The notes below the pieces were generated by a model, which saw nothing but the letters and a program-made list of their open reading frames with translations, was not told the origin of the DNA and made no database searches. A stretch of 64,000 bases of DNA, from the NCBI RefSeq assembly GCF_900142135.1, contig NZ_FQZU01000012.1, positions 62,001 through 126,000 of the forward strand, read 5' to 3'. The DNA is from Desulfatibacillum alkenivorans DSM 16219. Its GTDB lineage: Bacteria; Desulfobacterota; Desulfobacteria; Desulfobacterales; Desulfatibacillaceae. Position numbers and translations under genes: made by a program. Of this stretch, positions 1-13,190 are shown piece after piece (the stretch's first letter is position 1; each line of letters begins with the position of its first letter).

Positions 1-1
1 G

Positions 2-805
2 GTTGCAGAGATGGAGATAGACCATCGCAACCTGGCGGTCACCTACGTTTCGTCCTTCGGGTGGAACGAAAGCATGACCAACAGGGCCTACAGCCTGAAC
101 TACGACGTGGCCGTTTTGAAGATCAACGCCCGAGTGGCCATGCAGGACGTTGAAGGCGACCGCATCGCCGCCCTTAACTACACGGGGTTTTGGGGGGTTT
201 CCGACGGATGGGATTTCTATGTCGACGCACATACCTTCGGCGATACCACGGGGGTCGGCGATGACGGCATAATGATCATGAACGGAATTCGGGTGGAACT
301 GGCTTACGACGATATAGACAGCGTGGACCGGCGCTTTTTGTTTTTCCGATTCGGCACCGACGATCAAACCGGCCGCTTTAACGTACAAAATCACATGAGG
401 TATATCAGCTTTGACGGCATCCTGGACAACAACCTGGAAGAAACGCTAAGCTGGCCGGATAACGATACGGAGCCTTACATGCGGATGAACTATCACCGCC
501 AGACCCTGGCCGCCAGTCTGCCCTTTGAGACGGGACTTGGGAAGCAGGCGCTTTCTGCGGTCAACTACATGGATTTCGGCGTTGAGTACGATAGCAACGG
601 CAATCCCGCCAGTTCCGGCCCCACGGACTTTTATATTTCCATCGCTGATACAATTACTGCAAAAAGAGGCACAGCGGTCATTACCAATGACGGCCGGGCT
701 TTGGGGCCGTGGAACATGGCCAGGAACTCCATTCCCGGAAGAGGGCTCTGGATGCACTTTCAGAGAGGCTTTGTCAGTGCGGAAGTTGATACGGGCAATT
801 GGTAG
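2..805 (+). CDS. Secreted-type hypothetical protein, C-terminal part (cut by window edge)
   Basis: The reading frame is open back to base 2, and the first ATG (base 11) lies inside an already open frame with no ribosome binding site, so this is the C-terminal part of a longer gene. The visible 265 residues are rich in Asp, Gly, Asn and aromatic residues, with alternating polar and hydrophobic residues as in secreted beta-strand proteins. It ends in a Trp-rich tail (GLWMHFQRGF ... DTGNW). No enzyme motif is visible. It sits 41 bp before the next plus-strand gene, whose product has a similar composition and a DUF6160-like N-terminus, so the two probably form one transcription unit. Its function is unknown; a role as a large substrate or surface component of the neighbouring C39-peptidase cluster is inferred from position. 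Confidence 0.6.
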   Translation, partial: VAEMEIDHRNLAVTYVSSFGWNESMTNRAYSLNYDVAVLKINARVAMQDVEGDRIAALNYTGFWGVSDGWDFYVDAHTFGDTTGVGDDGIMIMNGIRVELAYDDIDSVDRRFLFFRFGTDDQTGRFNVQNHMRYISFDGILDNNLEETLSWPDNDTEPYMRMNYHRQTLAASLPFETGLGKQALSAVNYMDFGVEYDSNGNPASSGPTDFYISIADTITAKRGTAVITNDGRALGPWNMARNSIPGRGLWMHFQRGFVSAEVDTGNW

Positions 806-846
806 CAATCTTCCAAAAAAGCAAAACCTGCAAAGGGTGACCACAG

Positions 847-1998
847 ATGATCAAATGGCTGGGCGCAAGCATCGTTGCAATGCTCATGATAATCGTCCTG
901 ATCAGCCAGGAACCGGCTGGCGCGGGCATGGCGCCCGTGGGGGATGAGGATCTTGCCGAAATCACTGCGCAAACGGGCATCAATCTGTACGGCTCCCTAA
1001 AAGCCACCGCCGGCAACCTCATCATCGCCAGTACGGCGGGCGGGCTGAAACTGGGCGGCTGGCGCCTTAATAACGCCACCACCTCCACGGCGGACCCCGC
1101 CAGCACCACCGACGGAACCATTTCCTTCAGCCAATGGGGGCCTTTTTCCATCAATGTGGGCTATAGGAATGCTCCCGCAGGAAAAAGAGCCGTGCTGCGC
1201 ATCGGCCTGGACGCCCGCGTGAATGATGACGCTCCCACCTGGGTCTTTAAAAATATCCAGATGTGGCAGGATGAAGACTGGAGCAGCTACAGCGGCGCGC
1301 CCTACTATAACGGTGCGGACTGCTTAAGAGACGATCCTTCGGGAAATTTCTGGAACTATGACTGGTCTGCAGCCAATCCTTTGACCGACTTGGAAGAGGG
1401 AACCTACGCAGGCGCGCCAAATACCTACACCGCGGGAAACCACACGGAAGCCGGCTGGATAGACATTGGCGGCCTGTATCTCACCACCATCCATTTGTGG
1501 CAATCCTACATTGATATTTTCAACGACGGACAGACCTCAACCTCCCAGATTCAGGGTTACGGCCGGTTTTTCGGGACGGTGGAGAGGACGACCATCCAGT
1601 GGGGACAGACCTATTTGGACGGCGCCGCGGTCATAGACAACCTGACTTTCAGCCGGCTGCCCGTTTCCACGGGCGGAACCACCGACAACTACATGATCCT
1701 GGGAAACGAAACCGGCGGCGACCCCCTGGTGTGGGATCAAACCTCCAACTTCCGAGACTCCACCGGAACCATCCGCATGAACAACATGCGCATCTGGTTT
1801 CCTTTTGAAGGCTCCCTGACCTGGGATAATTTTGCCATCAGAGACACCAGCTACACCCGCAGCGACGGCCCGGTCGACGCTAATGGATACCTGAACCTGG
1901 GCGCCTTGGAAGTAAATCATCTGCGCGGCACCATCACCATTGACTTTCCCCAACAGGAAAACCCCGACGCCTACGACGGCGGATGGTGGAATTACTAA
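847..1998 (+). CDS. Secreted DUF6160-like protein (large paralog)
   Basis: The 383-residue product starts with a signal peptide (hydrophobic residues about 5-22, likely cut near AGA-GM). Directly after it comes GDEDLAEITAQTGI, the same motif that opens the six small minus-strand paralogs (VTGQxGI), here with AQ in place of GQ. The rest is Gly/Asp/Thr/Trp-rich beta-type sequence ending in a Trp-rich tail (GGWWNY), with no catalytic motif. The ATG has an AAGGGTGA site upstream. It lies 41 bp after the partial gene and converges on the FadL gene. I read it as a long member of the same exported family as the small paralogs; the family match is by eye from the N-terminus only. Confidence 0.6.
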   Translation: MIKWLGASIVAMLMIIVLISQEPAGAGMAPVGDEDLAEITAQTGINLYGSLKATAGNLIIASTAGGLKLGGWRLNNATTSTADPASTTDGTISFSQWGPFSINVGYRNAPAGKRAVLRIGLDARVNDDAPTWVFKNIQMWQDEDWSSYSGAPYYNGADCLRDDPSGNFWNYDWSAANPLTDLEEGTYAGAPNTYTAGNHTEAGWIDIGGLYLTTIHLWQSYIDIFNDGQTSTSQIQGYGRFFGTVERTTIQWGQTYLDGAAVIDNLTFSRLPVSTGGTTDNYMILGNETGGDPLVWDQTSNFRDSTGTIRMNNMRIWFPFEGSLTWDNFAIRDTSYTRSDGPVDANGYLNLGALEVNHLRGTITIDFPQQENPDAYDGGWWNY

Positions 1999-2168
1999 GT
2001 TCCTTCCCTTTTCAGACCATTCCAATATGATTTTAAGCCATAAGCCAAGCCGTTTCGCCGGCCCCATGCTTTTTCACGAAATACATCCACCTCGGACCTT
2101 TGAACCGGTGTGAAGCTGCTTTTATGGATAGATGCCTGGTTGCCGTCATTCACGCAATTTACTCATTC

Positions 2169-2196
2169 TTTTAGTCCACACCCTGCATATATTCCA
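2169..2196 (+). repeat. Short dispersed repeat, copy 1
   Basis: This 28-bp stretch around TCCACACCCTGCA matches 46348-46375 at 25 of 28 positions. Both copies lie downstream of plus-strand genes in non-coding DNA. Function unknown. Confidence 0.5.
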
Positions 2197-2412
2197 CAAC
2201 CTCCCTGGGCCCCATTTTCCGGGAATGCACAGATAGGAGGGACGCGAGCCTTATCTCAACCGTTTTGCTTCGTGAGACATGGGACTGCCGGGAAAATAAG
2301 TTCCTGTCCCGGGAAATCTCCCCCGCCCCTGGCGCCGCGGCTCATCCCACTGCCCGTTATCCCGGCAAGGGACAGCATGCCCCAAACAAACTGTTGGGGA
2401 AGATGGAACAAA

Positions 2413-2443
2413 ACAGGCCCTTTGTCCGTGACAAAGGGCCTGT
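2413..2443 (-). terminator. Rho-independent terminator of the FadL gene
   Basis: A perfect 13-bp stem (ACAGGCCCTTTGT and its complement) with a 5-nt loop is followed on the minus strand by TTTTGTTCC. It lies 33 bp beyond the FadL stop codon and probably ends the long minus-strand cluster. Confidence 0.85.
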
Positions 2444-2476
2444 GTATTTCCGGCCGACGATTTTCGCTGCAGCGGA

Positions 2477-4123
2477 TTACCAGTTATAGCGCAATCCCAT
2501 GGAGATGAACATACCCGTGGTTTGCTGGTAGTAATTCAAGTGCGCGTAGGGGTTGTAAATCAACGCGGTCAACTCGCGGGTGTTCAGGTTTCGGCTCCTG
2601 CCCCCGTTGTCGTAGTCCATTTCAATGTCTTCCGCCATAATAAGGCCTACGCCCATATCGAGAGTGGCGTTTCTGGTGAGCTTTAGGCCAAATCCGCCGG
2701 ATAGAATTTTCATGTCGGGAAGCACCATCATGGCGTCCCTGTATTCCTCCCTGACGGAGGTGGGACGATCCTCGTAGCCCAGGCGAAGGTCCAGCCACGG
2801 AGTGGCGGCGAATTCCAGGCCGAAGCAGGCGTGGAGGGTGTCTATCATGTGGCGTTCGAACACAATGGTGCGGGTTCCGTACTGGTAGCCTAAAAGCTCC
2901 GCCAGCTTTAATACTTGGAGATCATAGTCAAACTCAAAGATGTTGCTTTCCATGGTGGACCACTGGGTCCACTGGAGATCGGCGGTGAGCTTGAGCCTTT
3001 TGAAAGGCCTGATCATGATGCCGCCCTGAATATGGCGGGGCTGGATCATTTCCACCGAACCGCGGCCCGACTGATAAGCCAGTCCGCCTTCCGTGGGCAG
3101 TCCCAGCGACTCGGTGAAGATGCGGATCAAATCGTTGGCAACCAGCCAGTCCATCATGTTTTGAAATTTCTGGGAGTATTCCAGGGTGAAATGTCCGGAA
3201 AGCTCCTGCTTGACTTCGCTTTGGTAGCACAAGCCCACCGAAAACCAGTCTCTAGGCTCCCACAGCATGCCTACATTAAATCCAGGGGAGAAGTTGTCTT
3301 CCAGGCGTTCGGCGTGCATGGTTCCCATGTCGTCAAAGGCGTACATGCCGCCGCCGAAGAGCGGAAGCGGTATCAGGCCCAAAAACAGGGACTCGTCTAT
3401 GTCTTCCGTAAGCTCGCCCAGGGTGCCTGTCAGGGCTACCATGTCATTGGGGGCGCGCATTTGCATCCTGACCCCCATGGAAGAAAACCCAAGGCCGATG
3501 GATGCGCCTAAAGAAAGCGTGTCATTGACCTGGTAAGCAATGCCCGGACCCACAACCACCCGGGATAAATGCATCATTTGGGCGCCGTAAGTTGCAGGGC
3601 CGGCCGGGTTTTCCATACCAACGGCCATGGGCGCATACATGGCCAACCCCACCGCCCATTTCTTGCCTACCGGGTGATAGCCCATTCCCGTGTAAGGGGC
3701 GAAGCTGACGTTGGACACAGGCCCGTTAAAGGGAAGACTGATGACCATGCCTTCCGAGGTGCTGCTGCTTCCGGCCACCGGGTCGTCGCCTTGCCCGAAA
3801 AATGCGGTGTAAGAGTCGGGCTTGCTCCATTGCTGTGAAACATTGAAGTTGGGAAGCAGGGCCCCCAACTCAAGCTCCTTTCCCCGAAGTTTTATCAACC
3901 CCGCAGGATTGTAATGAATGGAAAACACTCCCGGAGGGCTGGCTGTCACGGCGTTTCCCAAGGAAATGCCCCTGGTGCAGATGGCGAATTGCTCAGCCAC
4001 GGACGCAAAAGCCGGCGGAGCTGATAAAACAAGCAAAAGCCATCCCGTCATGATAGCCAATAAAGCCTGGAGCTTTATTAATTTGCAGGATTTAATGGAT
4101 TCAGGCCGCAAAAATATTGTCAT
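2477..4123 (-). CDS. FadL/OmpP1/TodX-family outer-membrane channel
   Basis: This 548-residue outer-membrane beta-barrel family takes up long-chain fatty acids and other hydrophobic compounds. A signal sequence ending PPAFAS is followed by the FadL-type start of the mature protein (AICTRGISLGNAVTA) and the family NPAG box (HYNPAGLIKL, about residues 70-80). Amphipathic strands follow (for example GYEDRPTSVREEY), and the protein ends in an aromatic-rich strand with C-terminal Trp (GLRYNW), as expected for barrel insertion. Length is slightly above the usual 430-480. It is the last gene of the minus-strand cluster, 65 bp after the next barrel protein. Its substrate is not predictable; it could serve hydrocarbon or fatty acid uptake rather than the C39 module. 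The start is uncertain by some 20 residues because the upstream GAGGAA lies very close to the ATG. Confidence 0.88.
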   Translation of the reverse strand: MTIFLRPESIKSCKLIKLQALLAIMTGWLLLVLSAPPAFASVAEQFAICTRGISLGNAVTASPPGVFSIHYNPAGLIKLRGKELELGALLPNFNVSQQWSKPDSYTAFFGQGDDPVAGSSSTSEGMVISLPFNGPVSNVSFAPYTGMGYHPVGKKWAVGLAMYAPMAVGMENPAGPATYGAQMMHLSRVVVGPGIAYQVNDTLSLGASIGLGFSSMGVRMQMRAPNDMVALTGTLGELTEDIDESLFLGLIPLPLFGGGMYAFDDMGTMHAERLEDNFSPGFNVGMLWEPRDWFSVGLCYQSEVKQELSGHFTLEYSQKFQNMMDWLVANDLIRIFTESLGLPTEGGLAYQSGRGSVEMIQPRHIQGGIMIRPFKRLKLTADLQWTQWSTMESNIFEFDYDLQVLKLAELLGYQYGTRTIVFERHMIDTLHACFGLEFAATPWLDLRLGYEDRPTSVREEYRDAMMVLPDMKILSGGFGLKLTRNATLDMGVGLIMAEDIEMDYDNGGRSRNLNTRELTALIYNPYAHLNYYQQTTGMFISMGLRYNW

Positions 4124-4188
4124 TTCCTCACCGGATCAAACAAATTGACTTTAGCAGACAATTTTTAAATAAAGCGTCTTTTAAAAGT

Positions 4189-5325
4189 CTACAGTGAAAA
4201 TTCAAATGGTATACTTGCGTTGATGGAGTAGCTTTCTATGCCGATCAACCCGTAGCCAAGGCCCACGGACAGAGTCGTCTTGGGAGACAATCTCCAGCCG
4301 GTGGAAATGCTGAATGAAGCAGTGCTGGAGTCGTCACCCTCGTAGACTCTGGCATTATAGCCGTACAAAGGCCGCAGCCGGAACTCGGCGCTGGATGTAT
4401 GGCTTGCGTTAAACCTGAATGTAAGCGACGTCGTGTAGGACAAGGAAAAGCCGAGCCCGAATGCATAGCTGATGGTATGGCCGGGCCTGACTTCCTCCAG
4501 AACCATGACCTGGGAATAGCCGTCCGAGCGCTTCTGATCCAGTCCCGTAACCCGGGCGGAATAGCCCCCGGTGACGGCGCCGAAAACAATGACAGGGTCC
4601 AGAAGTTTGCTGAAGCTGGCGCCCACGCTGAACGAATGAGCCCCGTCCCCTGTGGACATTTCGTTGTCAGGATCAATTTTATAGGGGCTTCTGCCAGTGG
4701 GCGCCACATACCCGAAAGACATCAAAATGGCGGGCCACTTGGCCGTCTCTTGCTTGGCCTGGTATGAAAGCCCAAAAGACATGTCCCCCAAATCGGAAAT
4801 GCTTTGATCTTCCCCGGACACCTGATACTTGTAAATGAAAGGAATGGACGCGCTCAGGGAAACCTTATCCATGAGGCCGTAGCCCACGCCGATGGAGTTG
4901 ATCAGGCTGTAATAGCTTTCCCGTTCAATATCCACGTATTGATAGGCCAGGCCGTCCGCAGTCTCCGTGGCGACGCGGTCGTAGGATGAATGGCTGTAGG
5001 CCAGGCTGTACCGCATTTCAATGGTGCGGCTTTTCAAAAGCACAAATTCGGCCGTGTCCTCTTCCGTCGCTCTCAAAACCTCTTCGGTTTTTCGGCGTTC
5101 CGAGGCCTCCTCCCTGGTGGGCATCAGCGCTTTTCTGGCGTTGGCTTCCCGTTTATAGAGGTCCAGTTCATCTTCCAGACTGTCAAGACGCTCCTGCAAG
5201 GTCCTGAAAGCTTCCACCTGCGAACCCGCGGCTTGGCCTTCTGAGTCAGCCGCCAATAAAGGAAGGGCGCCAAGGCTCAGAACCATTCCCAAAATCACCG
5301 TGATTAAAATAAGATGGCGTGGCAA
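4189..5325 (-). CDS. Outer-membrane beta-barrel protein with N-terminal coiled coil
   Basis: A signal peptide (LILITVILGMVLSLGALPLLA) is followed by a charged coiled-coil stretch of about 60 residues (EAFRTLQERLDSLEDELDLY ...). The remaining 270 residues alternate polar and apolar residues with Gly/Ser-Tyr turns and end in a Phe-containing strand (IPFEFSL), typical of a transporter-like barrel (the 'phenol MetA-like' type). The frame is open to a TTG at 5343, but AAAGGAG lies just downstream of that codon and 7 nt before a second TTG at 5325, which I take as the start. It follows the C39-peptidase gene and precedes FadL on the same strand. An outer-membrane exit channel for the small secreted paralogs is a reasonable inference; no homology to a secretion pore is visible. 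Confidence 0.7.
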   Translation of the reverse strand: MPRHLILITVILGMVLSLGALPLLAADSEGQAAGSQVEAFRTLQERLDSLEDELDLYKREANARKALMPTREEASERRKTEEVLRATEEDTAEFVLLKSRTIEMRYSLAYSHSSYDRVATETADGLAYQYVDIERESYYSLINSIGVGYGLMDKVSLSASIPFIYKYQVSGEDQSISDLGDMSFGLSYQAKQETAKWPAILMSFGYVAPTGRSPYKIDPDNEMSTGDGAHSFSVGASFSKLLDPVIVFGAVTGGYSARVTGLDQKRSDGYSQVMVLEEVRPGHTISYAFGLGFSLSYTTSLTFRFNASHTSSAEFRLRPLYGYNARVYEGDDSSTASFSISTGWRLSPKTTLSVGLGYGLIGIESYSINASIPFEFSL

Positions 5326-5411
5326 GAAAAATCTCCTTTCCAAATGATATAAGGCGCACTACCGCCCTGGAGGGGCCGCCACTAATTCGGTTGCAACAAG
5401 CCGGAAGTCAG

Positions 5412-6935
5412 CTAGTTGGTCACCACTGTCGCCGTGCCGCTGTCTGAATCCGAACTGTCGTTGGAAACCCGTATTTCAAAACGCGTACTTGCGGAGGAGC
5501 TGGCGGTCGCATCCGGGGCGGTGAACAACACATGGCCGGGAGCAACCCGGTAATTGATCTTGTTGATCGCCATGCCTGTCACGTAATCCGCCTCGAATTG
5601 CGAAGCAAGAATGGAGGGCTGTGGGGTAGTAAACGCCATAATATGGCGAGCCATCTCATTGTCTATAAAACGGAGGTCGTTTTCGGTTAATTCCAATGCA
5701 TGGAAGCGGCGATTGCCGGCGTTTCCAACGCCGTCTACATAAAGACCGCCGTTGGCGCCGTCTTCTCCATTGCCGTAGCCGTTTCCATTGCCATAGCCGT
5801 TTCCGTTGCCATAGCCATTGCCGTTTCCAAAGCCGTTTCCGTTTCCGAACCCATCCCCGTTACCAAACCCCTCACTGTTGCTGTACCCGTTTTTATTCCC
5901 TAATGGGTCGCTGTTTCCGAAACCGTTTCCGTTTCCAAATCCGTCGCCGTTTCCAAAGCCGTTTCCATTACCATGGGCATTGGGCTCCAAGGCTCCGTCC
6001 AGACTGTTTCCCTGAATGCCTCCATAGTAAAGGCCTAATGCGTTGATTTCCTCCGGCGAGGATGGAATTTTTGACCGGTTGTTTGCGGGGCCGGAACCCG
6101 CCCCGTTGCCGTATCCGTTTCCGTATCCGTTGCCATAGCCGTTGCCGTATCCGTTGCCATAGCCGTTTCCGTATCCGTTTCCGTTGCCATAGCCGTTCCC
6201 GTTGCCATAGCCGTTCCCGTTGCCATAGCCGTTTCCGTTGCCGTATCCGTTGCCGTTTCCATAACCGTTTCCGTTTCCGTATCCATTGCCTGAACCTGGC
6301 GCAGCCGCGTATACGGCGGCCTTTCTTCCGGCTGGCGTTCGATAGGAATTGGAGGTCTTGGGCAATACGACAAAGATGACGTTCTTATACCATAATCGTT
6401 CAAAGGTAGCCAGAGGGAAACTGATGTTGCCCATGGACGGATCCGCAATCATAACGTGTCCGTTATAAATGCCTTTGACAACCACGAAATGCAGATATCC
6501 GAATAGGTCGATGGATACGATGTATGGAATTTTGAGTTTTTTAGCGTCGTCTATTTCCGCTTTATATCCATGGGCTTCATACCCAAGGACTTCCACCAGG
6601 CTCTTCATGTCCAACAAGGAAAAAGCCCGGCTTTGGGATATGCGCTCCACGTCTCCGTAAGTCAGCAATCCGTTGATGATGTGGGGTTCGGTGAGATTTT
6701 CCCCCAGGTAGTAGTTGAGCAGGGTGGTCAGGGCTGCGGAGCCGCAGCTGTAGTCGTACATCTGGCGCACGATATTGTGGTATCGGTGTTCCGACAAGGC
6801 GGGCAAAGACGTCCGGGGAGCAACAGGCTGCTGCAAGCCGGTCTGAACCATATAAGTCCCCTGAGGAAGAGGCTGAGGTTCATAAAATCCGGTCAGCATA
6901 GCCACGCCGATTAAAAAGCCTGCCAGAACGTGCAT
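5412..6935 (-). CDS. Exported C39-family cysteine peptidase with Gly/Asn/Tyr repeats (FilB-like)
   Basis: Residues 1-17 form a signal or anchor helix. Residues 50-190 are a C39 peptidase domain: oxyanion Gln58 and nucleophile Cys64 in QMYDYSCGSAAL, His149 in GYLHFVVVKG and Asp165 in VMIADPSMGN. C39 domains of ABC exporters remove double-glycine leaders; stand-alone exported C39 proteins also occur, for example in Acinetobacter Fil loci. The ABC transporter parts are absent here. Two low-complexity blocks follow (residues 203-270 and 311-382), built from GNGYGN and GNGFGNGD units, then a 125-residue C-terminal domain of unknown type. The gene follows six small secreted paralogs that are candidate substrates. 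The start has only a weak, distant GGGGAT site. All four active-site residues are present, so an active enzyme is likely; the cleavage site is not known. Confidence 0.82.
   Translation of the reverse strand: MHVLAGFLIGVAMLTGFYEPQPLPQGTYMVQTGLQQPVAPRTSLPALSEHRYHNIVRQMYDYSCGSAALTTLLNYYLGENLTEPHIINGLLTYGDVERISQSRAFSLLDMKSLVEVLGYEAHGYKAEIDDAKKLKIPYIVSIDLFGYLHFVVVKGIYNGHVMIADPSMGNISFPLATFERLWYKNVIFVVLPKTSNSYRTPAGRKAAVYAAAPGSGNGYGNGNGYGNGNGYGNGNGYGNGNGYGNGNGYGNGNGYGNGYGNGYGNGYGNGYGNGYGNGAGSGPANNRSKIPSSPEEINALGLYYGGIQGNSLDGALEPNAHGNGNGFGNGDGFGNGNGFGNSDPLGNKNGYSNSEGFGNGDGFGNGNGFGNGNGYGNGNGYGNGNGYGNGEDGANGGLYVDGVGNAGNRRFHALELTENDLRFIDNEMARHIMAFTTPQPSILASQFEADYVTGMAINKINYRVAPGHVLFTAPDATASSSASTRFEIRVSNDSSDSDSGTATVVTN
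5790..6005 (-). repeat. In-frame GNGFGNGD / GNGYGN repeat block 2
   Basis: This DNA encodes residues about 311-382 of the C39 peptidase, a less regular block in which Phe and Asp units replace some Tyr/Asn units. It is degenerate 12- and 18-bp repetition inside one gene. Confidence 0.8.
6126..6329 (-). repeat. In-frame GNGYGN repeat block 1
   Basis: This DNA encodes residues about 203-270 of the C39 peptidase as near-perfect GNGYGN and GNGY units. Such tracts change length by slippage, so copy number may vary between strains. Confidence 0.85.
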
Positions 6936-6956
6936 AATTTAATCGCATCCCCGGCT

Positions 6957-6973
6957 GATTCCTTAAAGGAATC
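6957..6973. promoter_or_regulatory. Palindrome upstream of the C39-peptidase gene
   Basis: GATTCCTT-A-AAGGAATC is a perfect 8+8 inverted repeat located 22 bp upstream of the peptidase start in the 198-bp gap after the small paralogs. It could be an operator or a short RNA hairpin; nothing else supports a function. Confidence 0.35.
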
Positions 6974-7133
6974 CGCCGCTTGATTATTGTTGGAGCCCTG
7001 GCCCTTCCGATTCCCGCCAATTCGCTAATTCGCCGGACTCGCTGATTGTGTGTATATTTCCAAGGCCGGAAATGCAGTCGCCAAAATGGATTTGCCTGTT
7101 AAAGCGCTCAATAGAACCGGCGCGGACGGCGTC

Positions 7134-7700
7134 TCACCGGGTCCGGATAAAAAAACTGCTGTGTTCTATGTACATGTCTCCGAAAACCCAACCGCCAAGC
7201 GAATCCCCCATGTCCTGCCCGTCGCCCAGTTTGATGGCGTCAAACGAAACCCTGCCGATGATGTCAGGCAGGCTGATGGCCATGTAGCTGAACTCGTTGC
7301 CGTAGCCTGTGTCAATCACCAGATTGTTGATGATCATCGGCCCGGTGGGGTCATTGCCGTCATTCATTTTCATTCCGGATAAAGTCAGGTATCCGGGCGC
7401 CCCGGCCACGCCGTCTTCTGCGTAGCCGTCTTTGTCCTTCCAACAGAGATAGCCGTCCGTGACTTCCAGGCTGACGTCTATTCTTATGCCTATTTGCCCT
7501 GTGTGAGAGGCAAGGTCGGACCGATCCATTTCCTCCAGATCATTTTCCAATGCAAAAAAGCTCTCAAGGCCGGGGTCGCGCATGGGGACTTCAACCGCGT
7601 CAGGATAGTCGCCGCGGATGTCCTGCTCCGGGCTTTGGGCCATGGCGCCGGGCAAAGCCAGGAGAATTGCGCAACAAGCTGTGAGGATGCTTTTTTTCAT
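7134..7700 (-). CDS. Small secreted DUF6160-like paralog 6 (long leader)
   Basis: A signal peptide (ends PGAMA) is followed by a 40-residue acidic spacer absent from the other paralogs, then SHTGQIGIRID, the family motif. The family core follows: GYLCWKDKDG, LTLSGMKMN, NLVIDTG, AISLPDIIGRVSFDAIKLGDG, SLGGWVFGDMYIE. It ends FIRTR rather than the PH seen in sister proteins. AGGAG lies 8-9 nt before the ATG. It is the last of six paralogs before the C39-peptidase gene. The product is predicted to be periplasmic or surface-exposed with no enzyme motif; it may be a structural or pilus-like subunit and a protease substrate. Confidence 0.72.
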   Translation of the reverse strand: MKKSILTACCAILLALPGAMAQSPEQDIRGDYPDAVEVPMRDPGLESFFALENDLEEMDRSDLASHTGQIGIRIDVSLEVTDGYLCWKDKDGYAEDGVAGAPGYLTLSGMKMNDGNDPTGPMIINNLVIDTGYGNEFSYMAISLPDIIGRVSFDAIKLGDGQDMGDSLGGWVFGDMYIEHSSFFIRTR

Positions 7701-7727
7701 GAGTGCGTCTCCTAAAAACGCCGCAAC

Positions 7728-8222
7728 TTAGGGAATCGGCTCAATGCGTATGGTGCTTCCGCCCATTTGAATGCCTGTCATGGCGATCCGTCCGATGTTA
7801 AATCCAACATCCGGATCCTTGCCGATTTTAAAGGAGTCAAATCCCCATCCGGAGTCATCGTCCTCCGTAAGCGTGCCGATGCCGATGATCAGATAAGAGC
7901 TTGATCCGTCGCTTCCAACGTCAATGGTCCAGTCTTCTCCGGTGACCGGCGTTCCCGCCGAACCGCCGTTAGCCCAAAAATCGCCTAAGGTGATGCACGC
8001 ACGGTCACTGTAACCCCCGGTGTCGTCCGGGAAGCCGTCATAGTCCATAAGAGACAGGTAGCCGGAAGTCGCTTCAAAAGCTACGTCAATGGTGATTCCC
8101 ACTTGCCCGGTGACCTCGGATAGATCCTCATCCTCAAGGGCGGACATGCCGCAATAACCAAACGGCGAAAAAAACGCCATACAGGCAAAGGCTATTATGA
8201 ATGCATATATTTTTTTTGCCAT
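7728..8222 (-). CDS. Small secreted DUF6160-like paralog 5
   Basis: The start is placed at the ATG at 8222 because GGGAGG lies 5 nt upstream of it; the longer frame from 8252 has no such site. The 164-residue product has a signal peptide ending FGYC-G (also a possible lipoprotein cysteine, although the LxxC box is poor). Then comes LEDEDLSEVTGQVGITIDV, the clearest copy of the family motif. The core shows GYLSLMDYDG, WTIDVG, YLIIGIGTL and NIGRIAMTGIQMGGSTIRIEPIP. It is 27 bp from the next paralog. Its function is unknown; it belongs to the same exported family. Confidence 0.72.
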   Translation of the reverse strand: MAKKIYAFIIAFACMAFFSPFGYCGMSALEDEDLSEVTGQVGITIDVAFEATSGYLSLMDYDGFPDDTGGYSDRACITLGDFWANGGSAGTPVTGEDWTIDVGSDGSSSYLIIGIGTLTEDDDSGWGFDSFKIGKDPDVGFNIGRIAMTGIQMGGSTIRIEPIP

Positions 8223-8318
8223 GGAAGCCTCCCTGGCTGTTTTGTCAGGCATTTACGGTTATGGGCTCCGATCCGTAACAAATAGCTAAAACAATGTTCT
8301 CGAATTTCAATTAAAAAA

Positions 8319-8804
8319 TCAATGGGGCGATAGCAATATTGTGTCCTTGGATAAATCAATGTCCCTGATTGTTATACTCCCCAGGCTGTTTTCCCTGGCG
8401 CCCTCGATGTCTTTTCCTAAAGAAATGTTTCCTACGGTGAACTCGCCCGATACTTTGGGAAGATTGATTATTAACACGGTTTTTCCGGCGGCGTTGGCGT
8501 CTGCATCAATGGTCAGCCCCTGAATCATTAAAGGGCCGTGTCCTCCACCCGCATTAAGCCTCAGATCGTCAAAAAGAAGGACGCCCTGATTGTTTTCATC
8601 CCCGTCGAGTCCGTCCTGGTCGATCCAGGCCGTGTAGCCGTCCACCAACTTGATGGACCCGTCTATGGCTATGCCCACCTGGCCGGAAAGCCCGCCCAGT
8701 TCCTCGTCAAGCTCCACCATGTTGTCAAACGCAGAATGCCCGGCGAAAGCCAGGGCTGGAAATAGCAGGGCGCAAAGGGCGATGATGAAAAAACGGCGTC
8801 TCAT
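8319..8804 (-). CDS. Small secreted DUF6160-like paralog 4
   Basis: This 161-residue protein has a signal peptide ending ALAFA-G, then VELDEELGGLSGQVGIAID, the family motif with SGQ in place of TGQ. The core has GYTAWIDQDG, LLFDDLRLN, GLTIDAD, LIINLPKVSGEFTVGNISLG and SLGSITIRDIDL, and it ends LLSPH. The pattern of short beta strands with repeated Ile/Leu-Asp units suggests a repetitive beta fold. It lies after the hairpin at 8873-8903, so its expression may be lower than that of the three genes before it. Confidence 0.72.
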   Translation of the reverse strand: MRRRFFIIALCALLFPALAFAGHSAFDNMVELDEELGGLSGQVGIAIDGSIKLVDGYTAWIDQDGLDGDENNQGVLLFDDLRLNAGGGHGPLMIQGLTIDADANAAGKTVLIINLPKVSGEFTVGNISLGKDIEGARENSLGSITIRDIDLSKDTILLSPH

Positions 8805-8872
8805 GGTTTTGGTTTCCCTCTTGCTCTCCTCCTCAAAGACTGCGGCTCTGCAAAAACGGCCTCCGAAAATGG

Positions 8873-8903
8873 CTGTGGGGGAGGGCCTAAGCCCTCCCCA
8901 CAG
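8873..8903. terminator. Strong intergenic hairpin, bidirectional or attenuating
   Basis: A 13-bp GC-rich stem (CTGTGGGG-AGGGC with one bulged G) closes a CTAA loop between paralogs 3 and 4. On the plus strand it is followed by TTTGTTTTTT; on the minus strand, where the genes lie, by the weaker CCATTTT. It could partly terminate transcription within the paralog array or stabilise the 3' end of the first three genes. Confidence 0.65.
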
Positions 8904-8928
8904 TTTGTTTTTTCCGGAGAACGCGTTG

Positions 8929-9387
8929 TCAGTGAGCCGTGACTCGAATCGTACTGTTCTCCATATTCAGGTCCCCGATGAAAACCCGGCCCAAGGACCC
9001 GCCGGAGGCAATCTGGGAGCCTATGTAGATCTCCTGAACGCCCAGTTGGCCCTCGATGGACGGCAGCCCCATCAAAAGATAGGTTTCTCCGCTTAAGTTG
9101 GTTCCCACATCCAGGGTTATGCCCGAGATGGTGATGGGCGCGCCGCTGTCGTCTATGGTCAACCCGTACAGGGTCAGGGAACCTTCATTTTGGGAAACCG
9201 TCGTGCCGAAACCGTCATCATCGGTCCATGCCAGATAGGAGTTGTTCAGCTGCCATGTCAAGTCCATAGTGATGCCGGTCTGGCCTGTCACCTCGCCCAT
9301 GTCATCCTCCGTAAGGGAGTCCATGCGGGCGAAAACGGTCATCGGCAAAGTCAGCAACATCATGACTATGACAGCGAATCGAGTCAT
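8929..9387 (-). CDS. Small secreted DUF6160-like paralog 3
   Basis: This 152-residue protein has a signal peptide ending MTVFA-R, then LTEDDMGEVTGQTGITMDL. The core shows YLAWTDDDG, LTLYGLTIDD, ISGITLDVGTN, LLMGLPSIEGQLGVQEIYIG and SLGRVFIGDLNMENSTIRV, ending TAH. Position for position it matches paralogs 1 and 2, so these three are recent duplicates. The leader-like segment (Leu-x-x-Asp-Asp-Met-x-x-Val-x-Gly-Gln) fits the spacing of double-glycine leaders (LSxxELxxIxGG) except for the last Gly. It has no catalytic residues and is a candidate substrate of the C39 peptidase. Confidence 0.75.
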   Translation of the reverse strand: MTRFAVIVMMLLTLPMTVFARMDSLTEDDMGEVTGQTGITMDLTWQLNNSYLAWTDDDGFGTTVSQNEGSLTLYGLTIDDSGAPITISGITLDVGTNLSGETYLLMGLPSIEGQLGVQEIYIGSQIASGGSLGRVFIGDLNMENSTIRVTAH

Positions 9388-9435
9388 TCACTCCACTTCC
9401 TGCAATGCAAAGTCAAACAGCGTGCACGGCGCCGC

Positions 9436-9897
9436 TTAGTGCGGGTAAACCGTACAGGTGGTGGGGGCGTAGTCGATGTTGCCCCAGGTGATGGCGCCAA
9501 GGGAGTTTCCGGCCGTGGCCGAGCCTCCTATGCGCACCTCGTCTATCTGCACATGGCCCGTGATCTGCGGAAGCCCGATGCACAAGGCCGGGTTTCCGCC
9601 GCTGTCGGTTCCCACGTCCAGAGTCAATCCGGTCACCACCATGTTGTCGTTGGCCCCTGTCTTGGTTATGTCCAGACCGTATATGGTCAGGGCGCCCTGG
9701 TTGGGGTACGAGCCGTCGTCGCCGTCTGAGTCTGTGATTGCAACGTAGCTGCCGCTAAGGTGGGTTTCAAAATTAATGGTGATTCCCACCTGCCCGTGGA
9801 TGACTCCCATGGAGTCCTCCGACATGCTTTCCATGCGGGCCTGGGCGGCAATGGGCGCCATTAATAAAACCACCATTATAATCGCCAGCGTTTTCAT
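9436..9897 (-). CDS. Small secreted DUF6160-like paralog 2
   Basis: The start is set at the ATG at 9897, where GGAGG lies 6 nt upstream; the frame is open eight codons further. The 153-residue product has a signal peptide ending AAQA-R, then MSEDSMGVIHGQVGITIN, the motif with HGQ in place of TGQ. The core follows (YVAITDSDG, LTIYGLDIT, VTGLTLDVGTD, LCIGLPQITGHVQIDEVRIG, SLGAITWGNI), ending VYPH. It sits between paralogs 1 and 3 with short gaps and is probably co-transcribed. Confidence 0.75.
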   Translation of the reverse strand: MKTLAIIMVVLLMAPIAAQARMESMSEDSMGVIHGQVGITINFETHLSGSYVAITDSDGDDGSYPNQGALTIYGLDITKTGANDNMVVTGLTLDVGTDSGGNPALCIGLPQITGHVQIDEVRIGGSATAGNSLGAITWGNIDYAPTTCTVYPH

Positions 9898-9927
9898 GCA
9901 AATCCTCCGTTCAGGCTGCAATGCATC

Positions 9928-10386
9928 CTAGTGAGGCATAACAACGACCTTGCTTCCGCTCATGTTCAGGTCGGAAATGGTCAGGGAGCCCAGGCTGCTG
10001 CTCGTGGTGGCGGCCGTGGATCCGTCGGTGAGATAGATGTTGCCAACGGAGATGTCGCCCGTCATGGCGGGCAGGCCGATGACCAGAGAGGCGTCATCAG
10101 CGTCAATCGTCAGGCCGGTCATGGAGATAGCGTTGCCGCCGTTGTCAATAGTGATGACGCTCAGTTCCAGTGCGCCAGTGTTTCCGCCGCCGGGCGTGGT
10201 GGTTTCGAAGCCGTCGGCGTCCGTCCATTCCACGGCCCCGATGGTTGCCTTCAGGCTTTGGTCGATGGTGATGCCGACCTGACCGGTGACGTCGTTCAGG
10301 GAGCTTTCGTTCAACAGACCCATGTCCGCCAGAGCCATTCCGGGAACGAGCATCAGGATTGCCGCCAAAATAACTAATTTCTTCAT
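9928..10386 (-). CDS. Small secreted DUF6160-like paralog 1
   Basis: This is the first gene of the minus-strand cluster, with the best ribosome binding site of the set (AAGGAGGT, 6 nt before the ATG). The 152-residue protein has a signal peptide ending GMALA-D, then LLNESSLNDVTGQVGITID. The core has AVEWTDADG, LELSVITID, MTGLTIDAD, LVIGLPAMTGDISVGNIYL and SLGSLTISDLNMSGSKVVV, ending MPH. The N-terminal motif resembles that of DUF6160 proteins found in Acinetobacter Fil loci; this family assignment is from memory of the motif. It is predicted to be exported by Sec. Function unknown. Confidence 0.76.
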   Translation of the reverse strand: MKKLVILAAILMLVPGMALADMGLLNESSLNDVTGQVGITIDQSLKATIGAVEWTDADGFETTTPGGGNTGALELSVITIDNGGNAISMTGLTIDADDASLVIGLPAMTGDISVGNIYLTDGSTAATTSSSLGSLTISDLNMSGSKVVVMPH

Positions 10387-11288
10387 GCCATACCTCCTTG
10401 GTAAAATAAAGTGTTGTGGTTTAAGGGTAAAAGGTTATCAAGAATCAGGCCCTATGCCTGTTTTCAGCAAATGCGGATTTTCACTTATAACATCGTTCTA
10501 TCCCGTGCGTAGAAAAATACGCCCGGAGTAAATTCCGGCTTGGTCGGAAAAACCTTGAACATCGGCTGGAGCCAGCCGTTTACGCCCAAATGGAGTTTTT
10601 AACCAAGATTAATGTTTAAAAAACCGTTTCCTATTGTGAAAACTGAATAATGAGGCTTTGTTTAGCCAAAGATTGCGGTGGGGCGGGTGCTGATCAGGGC
10701 CGTTTTTTGCCGGGAAGCCCTTCCCCCTGGTTGCGTCACTTCCATGTGTGTGATAGACTACTCGCCGAACTGATAAATCCCCCTTGCCGGCGAATACGCC
10801 CCCCCTTTAGTTAGGCATTCTTCACCCTTAGAGACGTTTATATCCCGGTTTTTTCTCAAAGTCAAGATCTTATCGTATTTTTTTCTTCATGTGTACAGAA
10901 TTGTTCCGGGAAGCATGGCGTCTGCGAAGTAAATTGGCATCTGCTTGTGGTTTTTGTGTATATATTAGTTTTAAAAATCAATTCTTTATTTTTTTGCATG
11001 CAGGTTTATGCGGTCCATCGCCCCCTCCAGGGAGGGGCAAACAGGTCCGGCTGACTGAACATGGGCGGGGGTTTAATGAATAATTGCCTAAATGCCGGAG
11101 TATGGGGAAAAAATTCCCATACCTTAATCTATGGAAAATGGCGCTGGGGAGTCTAAATAGTTTTCCAAATTCTTAACCCCAACAAAGGACTGTCCCAATC
11201 CCGCCGGATGTGCTAAGTTTGGAGCCTTCAAACGAAGCGCCTTGATTCGTTCACCGCACCGCTATCCACACATCTTTTGGAGGGGAAA
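10387..11288. other. Long divergent intergenic region
   Basis: About 900 bp separates the minus-strand paralog array from the plus-strand TMTC genes. It is AT-rich (especially 10600-10680 and 10930-11000) and should hold promoters for both directions, but I cannot assign a convincing -35/-10 pair. It contains a weak GCCCC/GGGGC hairpin near 11020-11040 and the inverted repeat at 11100-11122. The 64-codon frame at 10889-11083 has no ribosome binding site and is not called. Confidence 0.5.
11100..11122. promoter_or_regulatory. Inverted repeat upstream of the first TMTC gene
   Basis: GTATGGG ... CCCATAC with a 9-nt A-rich centre forms a 7+7 palindrome about 170 bp upstream of the TMTC operon. 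The size and position suit a dimeric regulator; no regulator is identified. Confidence 0.35.
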
Positions 11289-13190
11289 ATGAAAACTAAA
11301 CCCGTCCCTGACGCAGCGCCCGGAGGCGAGGCTTCCAAGGCCGGTCCCGGAGGCAAGGGCGTTTACTGGGGGATTGCAGCCTTCGTTCTATTTCCGCTGC
11401 TGACCCTGGCGCTTTACCATGGCGTATTGCACGGCCCCATGATCTTCGATGACCTGGCCCAGATTAAGAACAACTTCCCCTTGCAGCAACAGAATCTTGA
11501 TCTGAAAAACATCCTGGAAGGCTTGAAGGAATCCCGCCTGGCGGGCCGTTTTGCAGCCAACTTCACCTTGATGATTAACTATCGGTTTGGCTTGCTGGAT
11601 CCCTATGGCTACCATCTGGTGAATCTTGGCATCCACGCCGTCACGGGCATTTTGGTTTTTTTCCTGCTCCGGATCACCTTGCTGCTGTCGGGGAAGGGCG
11701 AAAACTTCCAGGAAGACAGGGCGAACCTGATAGCTTTTTTAGCGGCGCTTTTGTGGCTGGTCCATCCTTTGGGAACCCAGACCACCTCCTACATCGTCCA
11801 GAGGATGAACGGGCTTTCCACCCTGTTTTTCGCCGCAGCCTTGCTATCGTACATCCGCGGCCGCATGCAAGACCGCAGAAGATATTTTCTTTTGTGCGGG
11901 CTGTTTTTCGCCCTGTCCCTCGGCTCCAAGGAAATCGGCCTGGTTTTGCCCGTGATAATCGTAATCTATGAATGGTATTTTTTTCAGGACCTGGATTTCG
12001 CATGGCTGAAGCGCGGGCTTCCCTGGTTGGGCGGGGCCGTCCTGTTAGGCGCCCTGGCGGGGGTTATCTATTTTGACTTCCATCCTGTTCAAGGCGTGAT
12101 GAACTATTACGGAATTCGGGATTTCACCCCCATGGAGCGAATTCTCACCCAATTCCGGGTGGTCCTGATGTATCTGACCCTGATTATCCTCCCTTTTCCC
12201 GGCCGAATGAACCTGGAGCATGACTTCCCCCTGTCCCACTCCCTGTTTGACCCAATGAGCACATTCCTTTCTTTGCTGATCATCCTGGCGCTGCTGGGCG
12301 CCGCAGCCGCCCTGGCAAAAAAGCACAGAATCGTGAGCTTCGCCATCCTGTGGTATTTTGCAACCCTTGCTTTGGAGTCCTCGTTCATCCCCATCGAACT
12401 GGTCTTTGAACACAGGACTTACCTGCCGTCCATGATGGTCATCCTCGCCTTGACCTTGCTTCTCTTCCAGGCCATGTCCAGCCCCAGGAAGGCCGCCGCG
12501 GCGTGCGTCTGTGCGGCTCTCTTGCTTTCCATCGGAACGGTTTACAGAAACCGGGTCTGGGCCGACAACCTGGTCCTCATGGCCGACTGCTTGAAGAAGA
12601 GCCCCAACAAGACCAGGGTGCTGCAAAATTACGCCGCGGAGTTGAGCGACGATAAAGTGGGCAGATACGGGGAGGCGGTGGTTTATTACCAGCGGGCTTT
12701 GAAGCAAGACCCGGACAATGTCAAATGCAACATATTTTTAGGGGCCTTGATGGCGCGCCTGGGCATGCTGCATCAGGGCGCTAAACATATTCAACATGGC
12801 CTGGCGCTGGAGCCCGATAATTACAAGGGCCTCTATCAAATGGGAATGTTGCTCATGCGGGCGAACAAGCCGGAGGAGGCCCTCGCCTACTTTAACAAGT
12901 CCGTGGAGTTGGAGCCCAGGTACGCCCCTGCGGTCCACAACCTGGGCCTGGCCTATCAAGTGCTGGGGGATCAGCAAAAAGCGCTGCAATGCATCAAACG
13001 TTCCATTGAACTGGCGCCCGCCGATCCTCGCGGGCATCATAATTACGCCATGCTGCTGAAGAAAATGGGGGACTACAAAGGGGCCAAACGCCATCTTTGG
13101 CTGGCTTTGGAATTTGCGCAAAAGCTGGGGATGGATAACAATGTCTCACAGGCCCGCGCTGAACTAAAAGCATTGGAGGGCCGCACATGA
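11289..13190 (+). CDS. TMTC-like GT-C membrane protein with TPRs (1)
   Basis: The start is set at the ATG at 11289, since GGAGGGG lies 5-9 nt upstream; the TTG at 11277 overlaps that site. The 633-residue product has about 10 membrane segments, with an acidic pair just after the first (MIFDDLAQIKNN, Asp54-Asp55), the position of the catalytic Asp in GT-C glycosyltransferases. Further landmarks are YGYHLVNLGIH, HPLGTQTTSYIVQRMNG, GSKEIGLVLP and FEHRTYLPSM. Residues from about 445 form four or five TPRs. Vertebrate TMTC1-4 share this layout and are O-mannosyltransferases of cadherins; bacterial members are mostly uncharacterised. A polyprenyl-phosphate-sugar-dependent glycosyltransferase is the likely role, acceptor unknown. 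The stop overlaps the next start (ATGA). Confidence 0.78.
   Translation: MKTKPVPDAAPGGEASKAGPGGKGVYWGIAAFVLFPLLTLALYHGVLHGPMIFDDLAQIKNNFPLQQQNLDLKNILEGLKESRLAGRFAANFTLMINYRFGLLDPYGYHLVNLGIHAVTGILVFFLLRITLLLSGKGENFQEDRANLIAFLAALLWLVHPLGTQTTSYIVQRMNGLSTLFFAAALLSYIRGRMQDRRRYFLLCGLFFALSLGSKEIGLVLPVIIVIYEWYFFQDLDFAWLKRGLPWLGGAVLLGALAGVIYFDFHPVQGVMNYYGIRDFTPMERILTQFRVVLMYLTLIILPFPGRMNLEHDFPLSHSLFDPMSTFLSLLIILALLGAAAALAKKHRIVSFAILWYFATLALESSFIPIELVFEHRTYLPSMMVILALTLLLFQAMSSPRKAAAACVCAALLLSIGTVYRNRVWADNLVLMADCLKKSPNKTRVLQNYAAELSDDKVGRYGEAVVYYQRALKQDPDNVKCNIFLGALMARLGMLHQGAKHIQHGLALEPDNYKGLYQMGMLLMRANKPEEALAYFNKSVELEPRYAPAVHNLGLAYQVLGDQQKALQCIKRSIELAPADPRGHHNYAMLLKKMGDYKGAKRHLWLALEFAQKLGMDNNVSQARAELKALEGRT

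Follow-up and report, generated by a model that had tools for sequence, protein, structure and literature searches.

A probable fil-type pilus operon of Desulfatibacillum alkenivorans whose subunits carry a double-glycine-type leader behind the Sec signal

The stretch analyzed here (the window: 64,000 nucleotides of D. alkenivorans DSM 16219) contains a nine-gene cluster that is probably a fil-type pilus (fibre) operon, in which a FilB-type peptidase would cut tandem leaders from its FilA-type subunits, a FilC-type barrel would provide the exit, and the fibre would lie outside the cell. What appears to be new is the likely substrate of the peptidase and the cut site. The preliminary description of this DNA had proposed a possible undescribed system for envelope export or display. 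Its route, namely Sec, trimming by a C39 peptidase in the periplasm, and passage through a barrel, fits the evidence. The word "undescribed" was rejected: NCBIfam holds FilA to FilD families as a putative pilus system, with FapD and FapF as fibril amyloid counterparts, and a related pilus-like filament (9xfv) is in the PDB.

Structure of the operon

The nine genes at 2477-10386 are all on the minus strand in the list of open reading frames, and the family models place them, along the operon, as six filA-type genes followed by one filB-type, one filC-type, and one filD-type gene. All nine were matched as homologues by family models: FilA (DUF6160), FilB (C39), FilC, and FilD (OmpP1/FadL). The features are listed below in operon order, followed by the flanking elements; leaders span positions -15 to -1, and a slash marks the predicted cut.

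9928..10386, minus strand: filA-type subunit 1; DUF6160, 57.6 bits; Sec signal and C39-type leader
10279..10323, minus strand: predicted leader of subunit 1; predicted cut after residue 36, VTGQ/VGIT
9436..9921, minus strand: filA-type subunit 2; DUF6160, 45.1 bits
9790..9834, minus strand: predicted leader of subunit 2; predicted cut after residue 44, IHGQ/VGIT
8929..9387, minus strand: filA-type subunit 3; DUF6160, 43 bits; structure modelled
9280..9324, minus strand: predicted leader of subunit 3; predicted cut after residue 36, VTGQ/TGIT
8319..8804, minus strand: filA-type subunit 4; DUF6160, 21.9 bits, under the cut-off
8679..8723, minus strand: predicted leader of subunit 4; predicted cut after residue 42, LSGQ/VGIA
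7728..8252, minus strand: filA-type subunit 5; DUF6160, 36.2 bits
8103..8147, minus strand: predicted leader of subunit 5; predicted cut after residue 50, VTGQ/VGIT
7134..7700, minus strand: filA-type subunit 6; DUF6160, 26.1 bits, barely under the cut-off
7494..7538, minus strand: predicted leader of subunit 6; predicted cut after residue 69, HTGQ/IGIR
5412..6935, minus strand: filB-type C39 cysteine peptidase, 507 aa; FilB E 1.8e-52, FapD E 4e-33
4189..5343, minus strand: filC-type exporter, 384 aa; FilC E 3e-49, FapF E 3.6e-15; model and fold search
2477..4123, minus strand: filD-type OmpP1/FadL barrel, 548 aa; FilD E 1.2e-91, PF03349 E 5e-45
2413..2443, minus strand: terminator-like hairpin 3′ of the last operon gene, from the consensus scan alone
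847..1998, plus strand: 383-aa secreted protein convergent to the operon; leader EITAQ/TGIN
1..805, plus strand: 3′ part of the gene for a secreted protein of 321 aa, the start of which lies 160 bases ahead of the window (L002:13840-14805)

The six small proteins (152–188 aa) are real paralogs: DUF6160 was found in all six with E values from 1.6e-15 to 2.1e-4, and four of them passed the Pfam cut-off, while no match to FapB or FapC was seen at E ≤ 1. The FilB-type protein has the full catalytic set claimed for it (Q58, C64, H149, and D165, invariant in 15 of 15 aligned FilB-type peptidases), and it bears a GNGYGN-type repeat insert. Its nearest solved relative is LahT (6mpz, E 3e-16). Pfam finds a C39 domain in it and no ABC domain at E ≤ 1; nor was an ABC transporter or HlyD-like gene seen in 1-14000 (reading of the list of open reading frames, with family scans of 12 proteins there), as the preliminary description had stated. 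Its N-terminus is hydrophobic but shows neither a clear charged n-region nor a clear AxA site, which makes a poor signal peptide; its presumed export is stated with this reservation, for it rests on that hydrophobic N-terminus. The two barrels described earlier were also recognized: the FilC-type protein was modelled as a barrel that has a helix of coiled-coil type at its N-terminus, the 18 best matches of this model in the fold search all being FapF entries, and the 548-aa protein belongs to OmpP1/FadL. The hairpin at 2443-2413 has 14 pairs and a T-rich tail, and terminator-like sites as a class are not enriched (15 versus 12.0 in shuffles, s.d. 3.8).

The four protein kinds and their order are those of the putative Fil pilus system (NF050077, FilA; NF050078, FilB; NF050079, FilC; NF050080, FilD). 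All scores, however, fall under the NCBI cut-offs: 46.2 against 220 bits for the best subunit with pilus_FilA, 178.4/475 for FilB, 114.6/330 for FapD, 168.3/630 for FilC, 55.7/700 for FapF, and 307.7/970 for FilD. The genes are therefore named fil-type and are not placed in the NCBI families. The Fil system has a single filA, whereas there are six FilA-type genes here; the repeat insert in FilB also sets this operon apart, and the open reading frames at the locus include no FilE/FilF-type gene adjoining FilD.

Recurrence elsewhere, which had been proposed as a check on the cluster, was borne out: FilB, FilC, and FilD are kept together, in this order and on one strand, at 75 of the 80 best loci in named genomes. 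DUF6160 occurs in 17 of 17 genomes with a strong FilB and in 0 of 18 with a weak FilB alone; in four DUF6160 genomes neither FilB nor FilD was detectable.

The leader behind the Sec signal

Judged from its residues, the VTGQxGI motif of the subunits closes a double-glycine-type C39 leader that follows the Sec signal, with hydrophobic residues at -12, -7, and -4 and Gly or Ala at -2; neither this leader nor the link to Fap had been recognized in the preliminary description. Of 126 FilA segments, defined by homology and cleared of duplicates, 102 show the pattern; the set includes internal second-domain matches, which are not leaders. The same positions matter in the leader cut by LahT (PMC6363468). 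Two window subunits deviate: subunit 4 has its hydrophobic residues at -11/-13 instead of -12, and subunit 6 has His at -4 and a longer stretch between signal and leader than the others. A rule for the signal peptidase site placed one in 68 of the 126 segments, 15 residues before the predicted cut in 48 and 12 residues before it in 17.

At -1, the known C39 sites carry Gly, Ala, or Ser. In the FilA-type proteins the residue is Gln in all six window subunits and in 82 of the 126 segments, Gly, Ala, or Ser being found in 14; betaproteobacterial relatives of FilA show Gly-Gly in this register. Behind the cut, +2 is Gly in 105 of 126 and +3 is likewise conserved, which makes part of the conservation structural. 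For the leader alignment, 67 of 77 rows were used, and the 10 omitted mostly lack the usual xGI behind the cut.

The strict motif occurs in 54 of 94 FilA segments, as against 0 of 63 FilC, 0 of 33 FilD, and 0 of 25 FilB segments. When 27 spacings were compared, the C39 spacing was found in 81 of 206 near segments and the others in 6–34; in the far control set the excess was weaker (29 of 170 versus 5–17). The strict motif was found in 62 of 206 near and 12 of 170 far segments, the shuffled near segments giving a mean of 5.3 and a maximum of 11 in 200 shuffles. The enrichment is of uncertain size, because the far set contains true FilA relatives (opposite strand, Duganella-type loci) and the near set contains spurious open reading frames. 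Duplicate contigs (L002, L067, L068, L098, and L111) and near-identical segments had been removed before counting. With the NCBI leader models, 75 near segments gave a small excess (ComC 2, bacteriocin_sig 2, and BLP 2, among 25 of 40 families listed), and the 25 of 119 families listed for 75 far segments included none of them. Some of the loci behind our own leader model come from the genomes in which it was then searched; its matches there are thus circular, and it is informative only by its near absence elsewhere.

Using the FilA profile, 11 matches at E ≤ 1 were found in the organism's own genome: the six cluster genes, the 847-1998 protein, and the proteins C4, C76, C33, and C28. The 847-1998 protein (FilA profile E 4.7e-7; weak DUF6160 match, E 0.0011) is a probable further substrate; a PDB search with it gave no notable match (best E 0.066). 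The leader was read in C4 and C76, which are encoded elsewhere in the genome and match the profile weakly (E 0.008 and 0.014), and none was read in C33. In the 321-aa protein the leader is doubtful (DDELADIRAQ/AVAE, with Ala at -12), and a Pfam search at E ≤ 0.01 found no match.

Relationship to a solved filament and to the Fap system

The entry 9xfv is a "Pilus-like-alpha" filament from a karst cave, released by the PDB on 2026-02-18 with 25 identical chains. The matches of the FilA family profile (E 1.7e-15) and of the Duganella FilA (E 5.8e-25) to its subunit identify the FilA-type subunits, at the level of sequence, as its homologues. The deposited chain (173 aa), from a subunit longer than those of the window, is numbered 38-210 and begins at the predicted +1 residue, with signal and leader absent; this start may merely reflect earlier residues left unmodelled. 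In the subunit 3 model, the first strand begins two residues behind the predicted cut. As a single query subunit 3 found no PDB relative, a Foldseek search with the FilA model returned nothing at E ≤ 0.001, and the structural Z of 7.5 against 9xfv is within the range common for chance arrangements.

The Fap amyloid system of Pseudomonas (FapA-F) is alike in having a stand-alone C39 peptidase and a FapF-type exporter. It differs in its Asn/Gln-repeat subunits FapB and FapC, here replaced by DUF6160 proteins, and the window operon has an extra FadL-type barrel. FapD activity is needed for FapC secretion and depends on its Cys, according to a 2017 paper that termed the target of FapD unclear (PMC5557850); a 2018 paper described this target as "yet to be determined" (PMC6173800), and in a 2025 review processing is thought to affect the N-terminus of FapE and a part of FapF (PMC12822426). 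The leader type of the FilA subunits was found on three Pseudomonas FapE proteins and not on nine neighbouring FapA/B/C-type proteins, whereas here all six subunits bear it. The FapE profile strayed onto repeat proteins of the FapB/FapC type; from its list 12 proteins were picked by eye for an RG(G/K/R)-Y/F stretch, a selection by motif except for the three that NCBI's model confirmed. The distribution of the leader among the Fap proteins points to FapE as the FapD substrate.

The leader stretch might instead be a targeting tag, left uncut, that is read by FilC or docked by a chaperone-like FilB, which would cut another component such as the FilC linker. Inactive C39-like domains do recruit uncut substrates in some type 1 systems (PMC6363468), processing of the FapF linker by FapD has also been proposed (PMC5557850), and Gln at -1 suits this reading; nevertheless, the invariant catalytic residues, the need of FapD for its Cys, and the lack of signal and leader in the 9xfv chain make it unlikely. 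Still less probable is that the stretch does no more than cap a beta domain at its N-terminus, resembling C39 leaders by convergence: the conserved +2 and +3 would agree with a cap, but the fixed C39 spacing, the lack of the motif in FilB, FilC, and FilD, and the presence of the leader on FapE and on C4 and C76 speak against it. We give slightly less credence again to a fibre-free reading with the barrels as uptake channels and the small proteins as periplasmic binding proteins or surface scavengers of hydrophobic compounds, which draws on the FadL/OmpP1 homology of FilD, the likeness of FapF-type barrels in the fold search to the COG4313 channel 4rl8, and the fact that no fibre of this organism is known, and which conflicts with the match of the FilA profile to a filament and with an exporter and peptidase that are counterparts of an amyloid secretion system.

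Proposed route and a class of stand-alone peptidases

For the fil-type pilus operon, we propose the following route. The six subunits would cross the inner membrane by Sec, and the signal peptidase would leave them with a leader of about 15–16 residues in double-glycine geometry. FilB, facing the periplasm, would dock this leader and cut after -1 (VTGQ/xGI), thereby freeing the first beta strand. Once trimmed, the subunits may pass out of the cell by way of FilC, the FapF-like pore, and form the polymer there, with FilD probably assisting at the outer membrane. Cutting of the leader would be the trigger of fibre assembly. The peptidase domains of AMS/PCAT proteins (LahT 6mpz, PCAT1 4ry2, and ComA 3k8u) share with FilB the catalytic residues and, by sequence, the fold, and their leaders have the same -12/-7/-4/-2 geometry. 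They differ in carrying the ABC transporter on the same protein, and the FilB substrate would differ in its prior passage by Sec and in its -1 residue, mostly Gln.

The occurrence of presumed fibre proteins with a second leader, of bacteriocin style, beside a protease suggests what this puzzling protease class acts on. On balance we favour, somewhat less firmly than the assignment of the operon itself, that FilB and FapD exemplify a general class of stand-alone periplasmic C39 peptidases with substrates that bear two leaders in tandem, first the Sec signal and behind it one of the double-glycine type: FapE would be the missing substrate of FapD and the FilA pilins those of FilB, the class would make fibres of the 9xfv kind, and the Fil branch would now cut after Gln. 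The conserved, positioned leader gives an exact, testable residue in both Fil and Fap and allows further substrates outside the operon to be predicted, and a pilus operon that occurs in several proteobacterial lineages and has received little study is tied to a solved filament.

Identity of the operon

The preliminary description had suggested a possible undescribed C39 export and display system in the window. Its gene content, that is, nine same-strand genes encoding six small secreted paralogs, a C39 protein and two barrels, was confirmed by the ORF list and Pfam. The features are as follows.

10386-2477, minus strand: fil-type operon of nine genes (ORF list)
Within 10386-2477, minus strand: six secreted proteins of 152-188 aa (ORF list; Pfam DUF6160)
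Within 10386-2477, minus strand: C39 protein of 507 aa (ORF list)
Within 10386-2477, minus strand: barrel of 384 aa (ORF list)
Within 10386-2477, minus strand: FadL-type barrel of 548 aa (ORF list)
5766-5966 and 6103-6290: DNA repeats of the FilB gene (sequence)
3′ of the last operon gene, minus strand: hairpin of 14 pairs with a T-rich tail (as a class, terminator-like sites show no enrichment there)

Pfam assigns the six small secreted proteins to DUF6160. The best NCBIfam matches of the four protein kinds were FilA, FilB, FilC and FilD, in the same order and all below the cut-offs, with FapD and FapF, from the Fap amyloid system, as further matches of FilB and FilC. Thus, judged from sequence matches, the cluster is a divergent fil-type operon akin to Fap, and the idea of an undescribed system was not upheld. 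In the FilC model (pLDDT 86), two helices (44-73 and 77-96) precede a barrel; the model's 18 best solved fold matches were FapF chains, with COG4313 and autotransporters next.

FilB (5412-6935) carries a long GNGYGN/GNGFGN-type repeat insert C-terminal to the C39 domain, shared among 15 aligned relatives only by that of L063, a locus of the same genus. Large membrane proteins with TPR repeats occur near several fil loci (window 11277-13190 and 13187-15583; L056:1402-3291, L062:15051-16766 and L063:2506-4413). The protein at 11277-13190 and that of L062 match PMT_2 (protein mannosyltransferase), and therefore the fibre might be glycosylated.

Distribution and gene order

With the FilB model at E ≤ 1e-10, 35 of the phylum's 395 genomes gave a hit. 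DUF6160 occurs in all of the 17 genomes with FilB above 170 bits (17/17) and in none of the 18 with weaker FilB. At the weaker-FilB loci, a FilC/FapF-type exporter is present in 15/18 and FilD in 0/18; FapB/FapC matches were found in 2 of the 10 neighbouring proteins scanned, both from one locus. Four further genomes of the phylum (G105, G032, G069 and G367) have DUF6160 proteins and leader hits with FilB and FilD undetectable, a state that may reflect loss, missing sequence or another peptidase.

The co-occurrence anticipated in other genomes was borne out: FilB-FilC-FilD are ordered on a single strand in 75 of the best 80 of at least 582 confirmed loci in named genomes, the remainder having B-C (2) or B alone (3). 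These 80 come from Desulfobacterota, Gammaproteobacteria (e.g. Pseudomonas, Marinobacter) and Duganella-type Betaproteobacteria. FilD lies apart from FilB in G254 and in four genomes from a single genus, either at a distance of about 26 or 183 kb or on another contig.

In several Desulfobacterota, filD is followed by a gene for a secreted protein (about 500 aa) whose TmcD/TolB beta-propeller matches are below cut-off (L051:12653-14164, L055:3257-4738; similarly in L050, L054 and L060); no such gene follows filD in the window. L055 also has a tandem filC-type pair (6554-7699 and 7696-8796).

Double-glycine-type leader and the filament

After the Sec signal, subunit 3 (8929-9387, minus strand) reads VFA-RMDSLTEDDMGEVTGQ-TGIT. 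Known C39 leaders carry Leu-12, Glu-8 and Leu-7, followed by Gly-Gly/Ala/Ser, and the hydrophobic pockets of LahT hold residues -4, -7 and -12 (PMC6363468). Among 126 de-duplicated, homology-defined segments of FilA relatives, we found L/M/I/V at -12 (107), E/D at -8 (67), L/M at -7 (111), V/I at -4 (82) and G/A at -2 (123), while position -1 holds Gln in 82 and Gly/Ala/Ser in 14. All of -12, -7, -4 and -2 conform in 102 of these segments. Betaproteobacterial relatives have Gly-Gly in the matching column (RGG-DGISF, SGG-DGISF), which fixes the register. Among proteins whose signal was found by the rule used here, the strict motif occurs in 54/94 FilA segments versus 0/63 FilC, 0/33 FilD and 0/25 FilB. 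The C39 spacing was the best of 27 spacings (81/206 near segments versus 6-34 for the others); in the far control, which contains true relatives, it was 29/170 versus 5-17.

The leader is also present in the plus-strand gene 847-1998 and in two secreted genes elsewhere in the same genome, LADSDLELITGQ-ASD (C4) and LTDMELAEISAQ-GWG (C76), both weak FilA-profile matches (E 0.008 and 0.014); the leader is portable. A 20-column leader model hit 23/395 genomes at E ≤ 0.01 (the 17 strong-FilB, the four DUF6160-only and two others), a partly circular test.

The subunit 3 model (pLDDT 80, pTM 0.51) places a short helix (27-31) within the leader and the first strand (39-45) just past the predicted cut (36/37). 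Structurally, it comes closest to 9xfv, a karst-cave filament described as pilus-like and released in 2026 (Z 7.5, rmsd 3.0 over 93 residues, 24% identity); taken by itself, this Z would be weak. By sequence, the 9xfv chain matches the FilA profile (E 1.7e-15) and Duganella FilA (E 5.8e-25). This chain starts, with DGVSI, at the residue after the predicted cut and is numbered 38-210, so that 37 residues, approximately signal plus leader, are missing from the deposited chain. Nothing else points as strongly to a fibre lacking the leader, although residues left out of a model need not have been cleaved off.

In the route that we consider probable as a whole, FilA subunits would be exported by Sec, processed by signal peptidase, cut after Gln by FilB, passed through FilC and polymerised. 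A FilB cut before export is unlikely, because the signal would be lost. Certain other pili are protease-activated; by analogy, we would guess that trimming triggers polymerisation.

Relation to Fap and to published work

FapD exceeded the NCBI cut-off in 3 of the 13 genomes searched, all three Pseudomonas, as did their FapE (3/3), which reads ELSDQELSQLRGR-Y, ELKDQELAQLRGK-Y and ELKDAEMAQLRGR-Y after the signal. Of the nine further secreted proteins listed around fapD in these genomes, which by position are FapA/B/C, none has the motif. At Desulfobacterota Fap-type loci, nine motif-selected proteins encoded directly 3′ of the peptidase gene have RGG-Y (8/9) or RGR-Y (1/9). In one Fap-type locus (L037:3991-8885), a GG or AG leader follows the signal in each of four consecutive secreted proteins (138-571 aa); the NCBIfam scan gave no match of note for them.

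Rouse et al. reported FapE as the sole Fap protein without detected N-terminal peptides, stated that canonical C39 sites are missing from Fap proteins and called the FapD target unclear (PMC5557850). Their FapE gap of about 70 residues exceeds signal plus leader. Therefore, either a longer stretch of FapE is removed or peptide coverage is thin. Trypsin cleaves after K/R too. FapD-FapF pairs were noted in five further phyla in 2018 (PMC6173800).

In the literature searched, DUF6160 is mentioned in one paper, and FilB, FilF, C39 and Acinetobacter are treated together in none. Among the matches listed, no such leader was reported for FapE/FapD, as judged from titles, and no paper on the karst filament was present. 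From this literature, the operon already has a name and is in part structurally characterised, and the substrate and its leader appear to be the new part.
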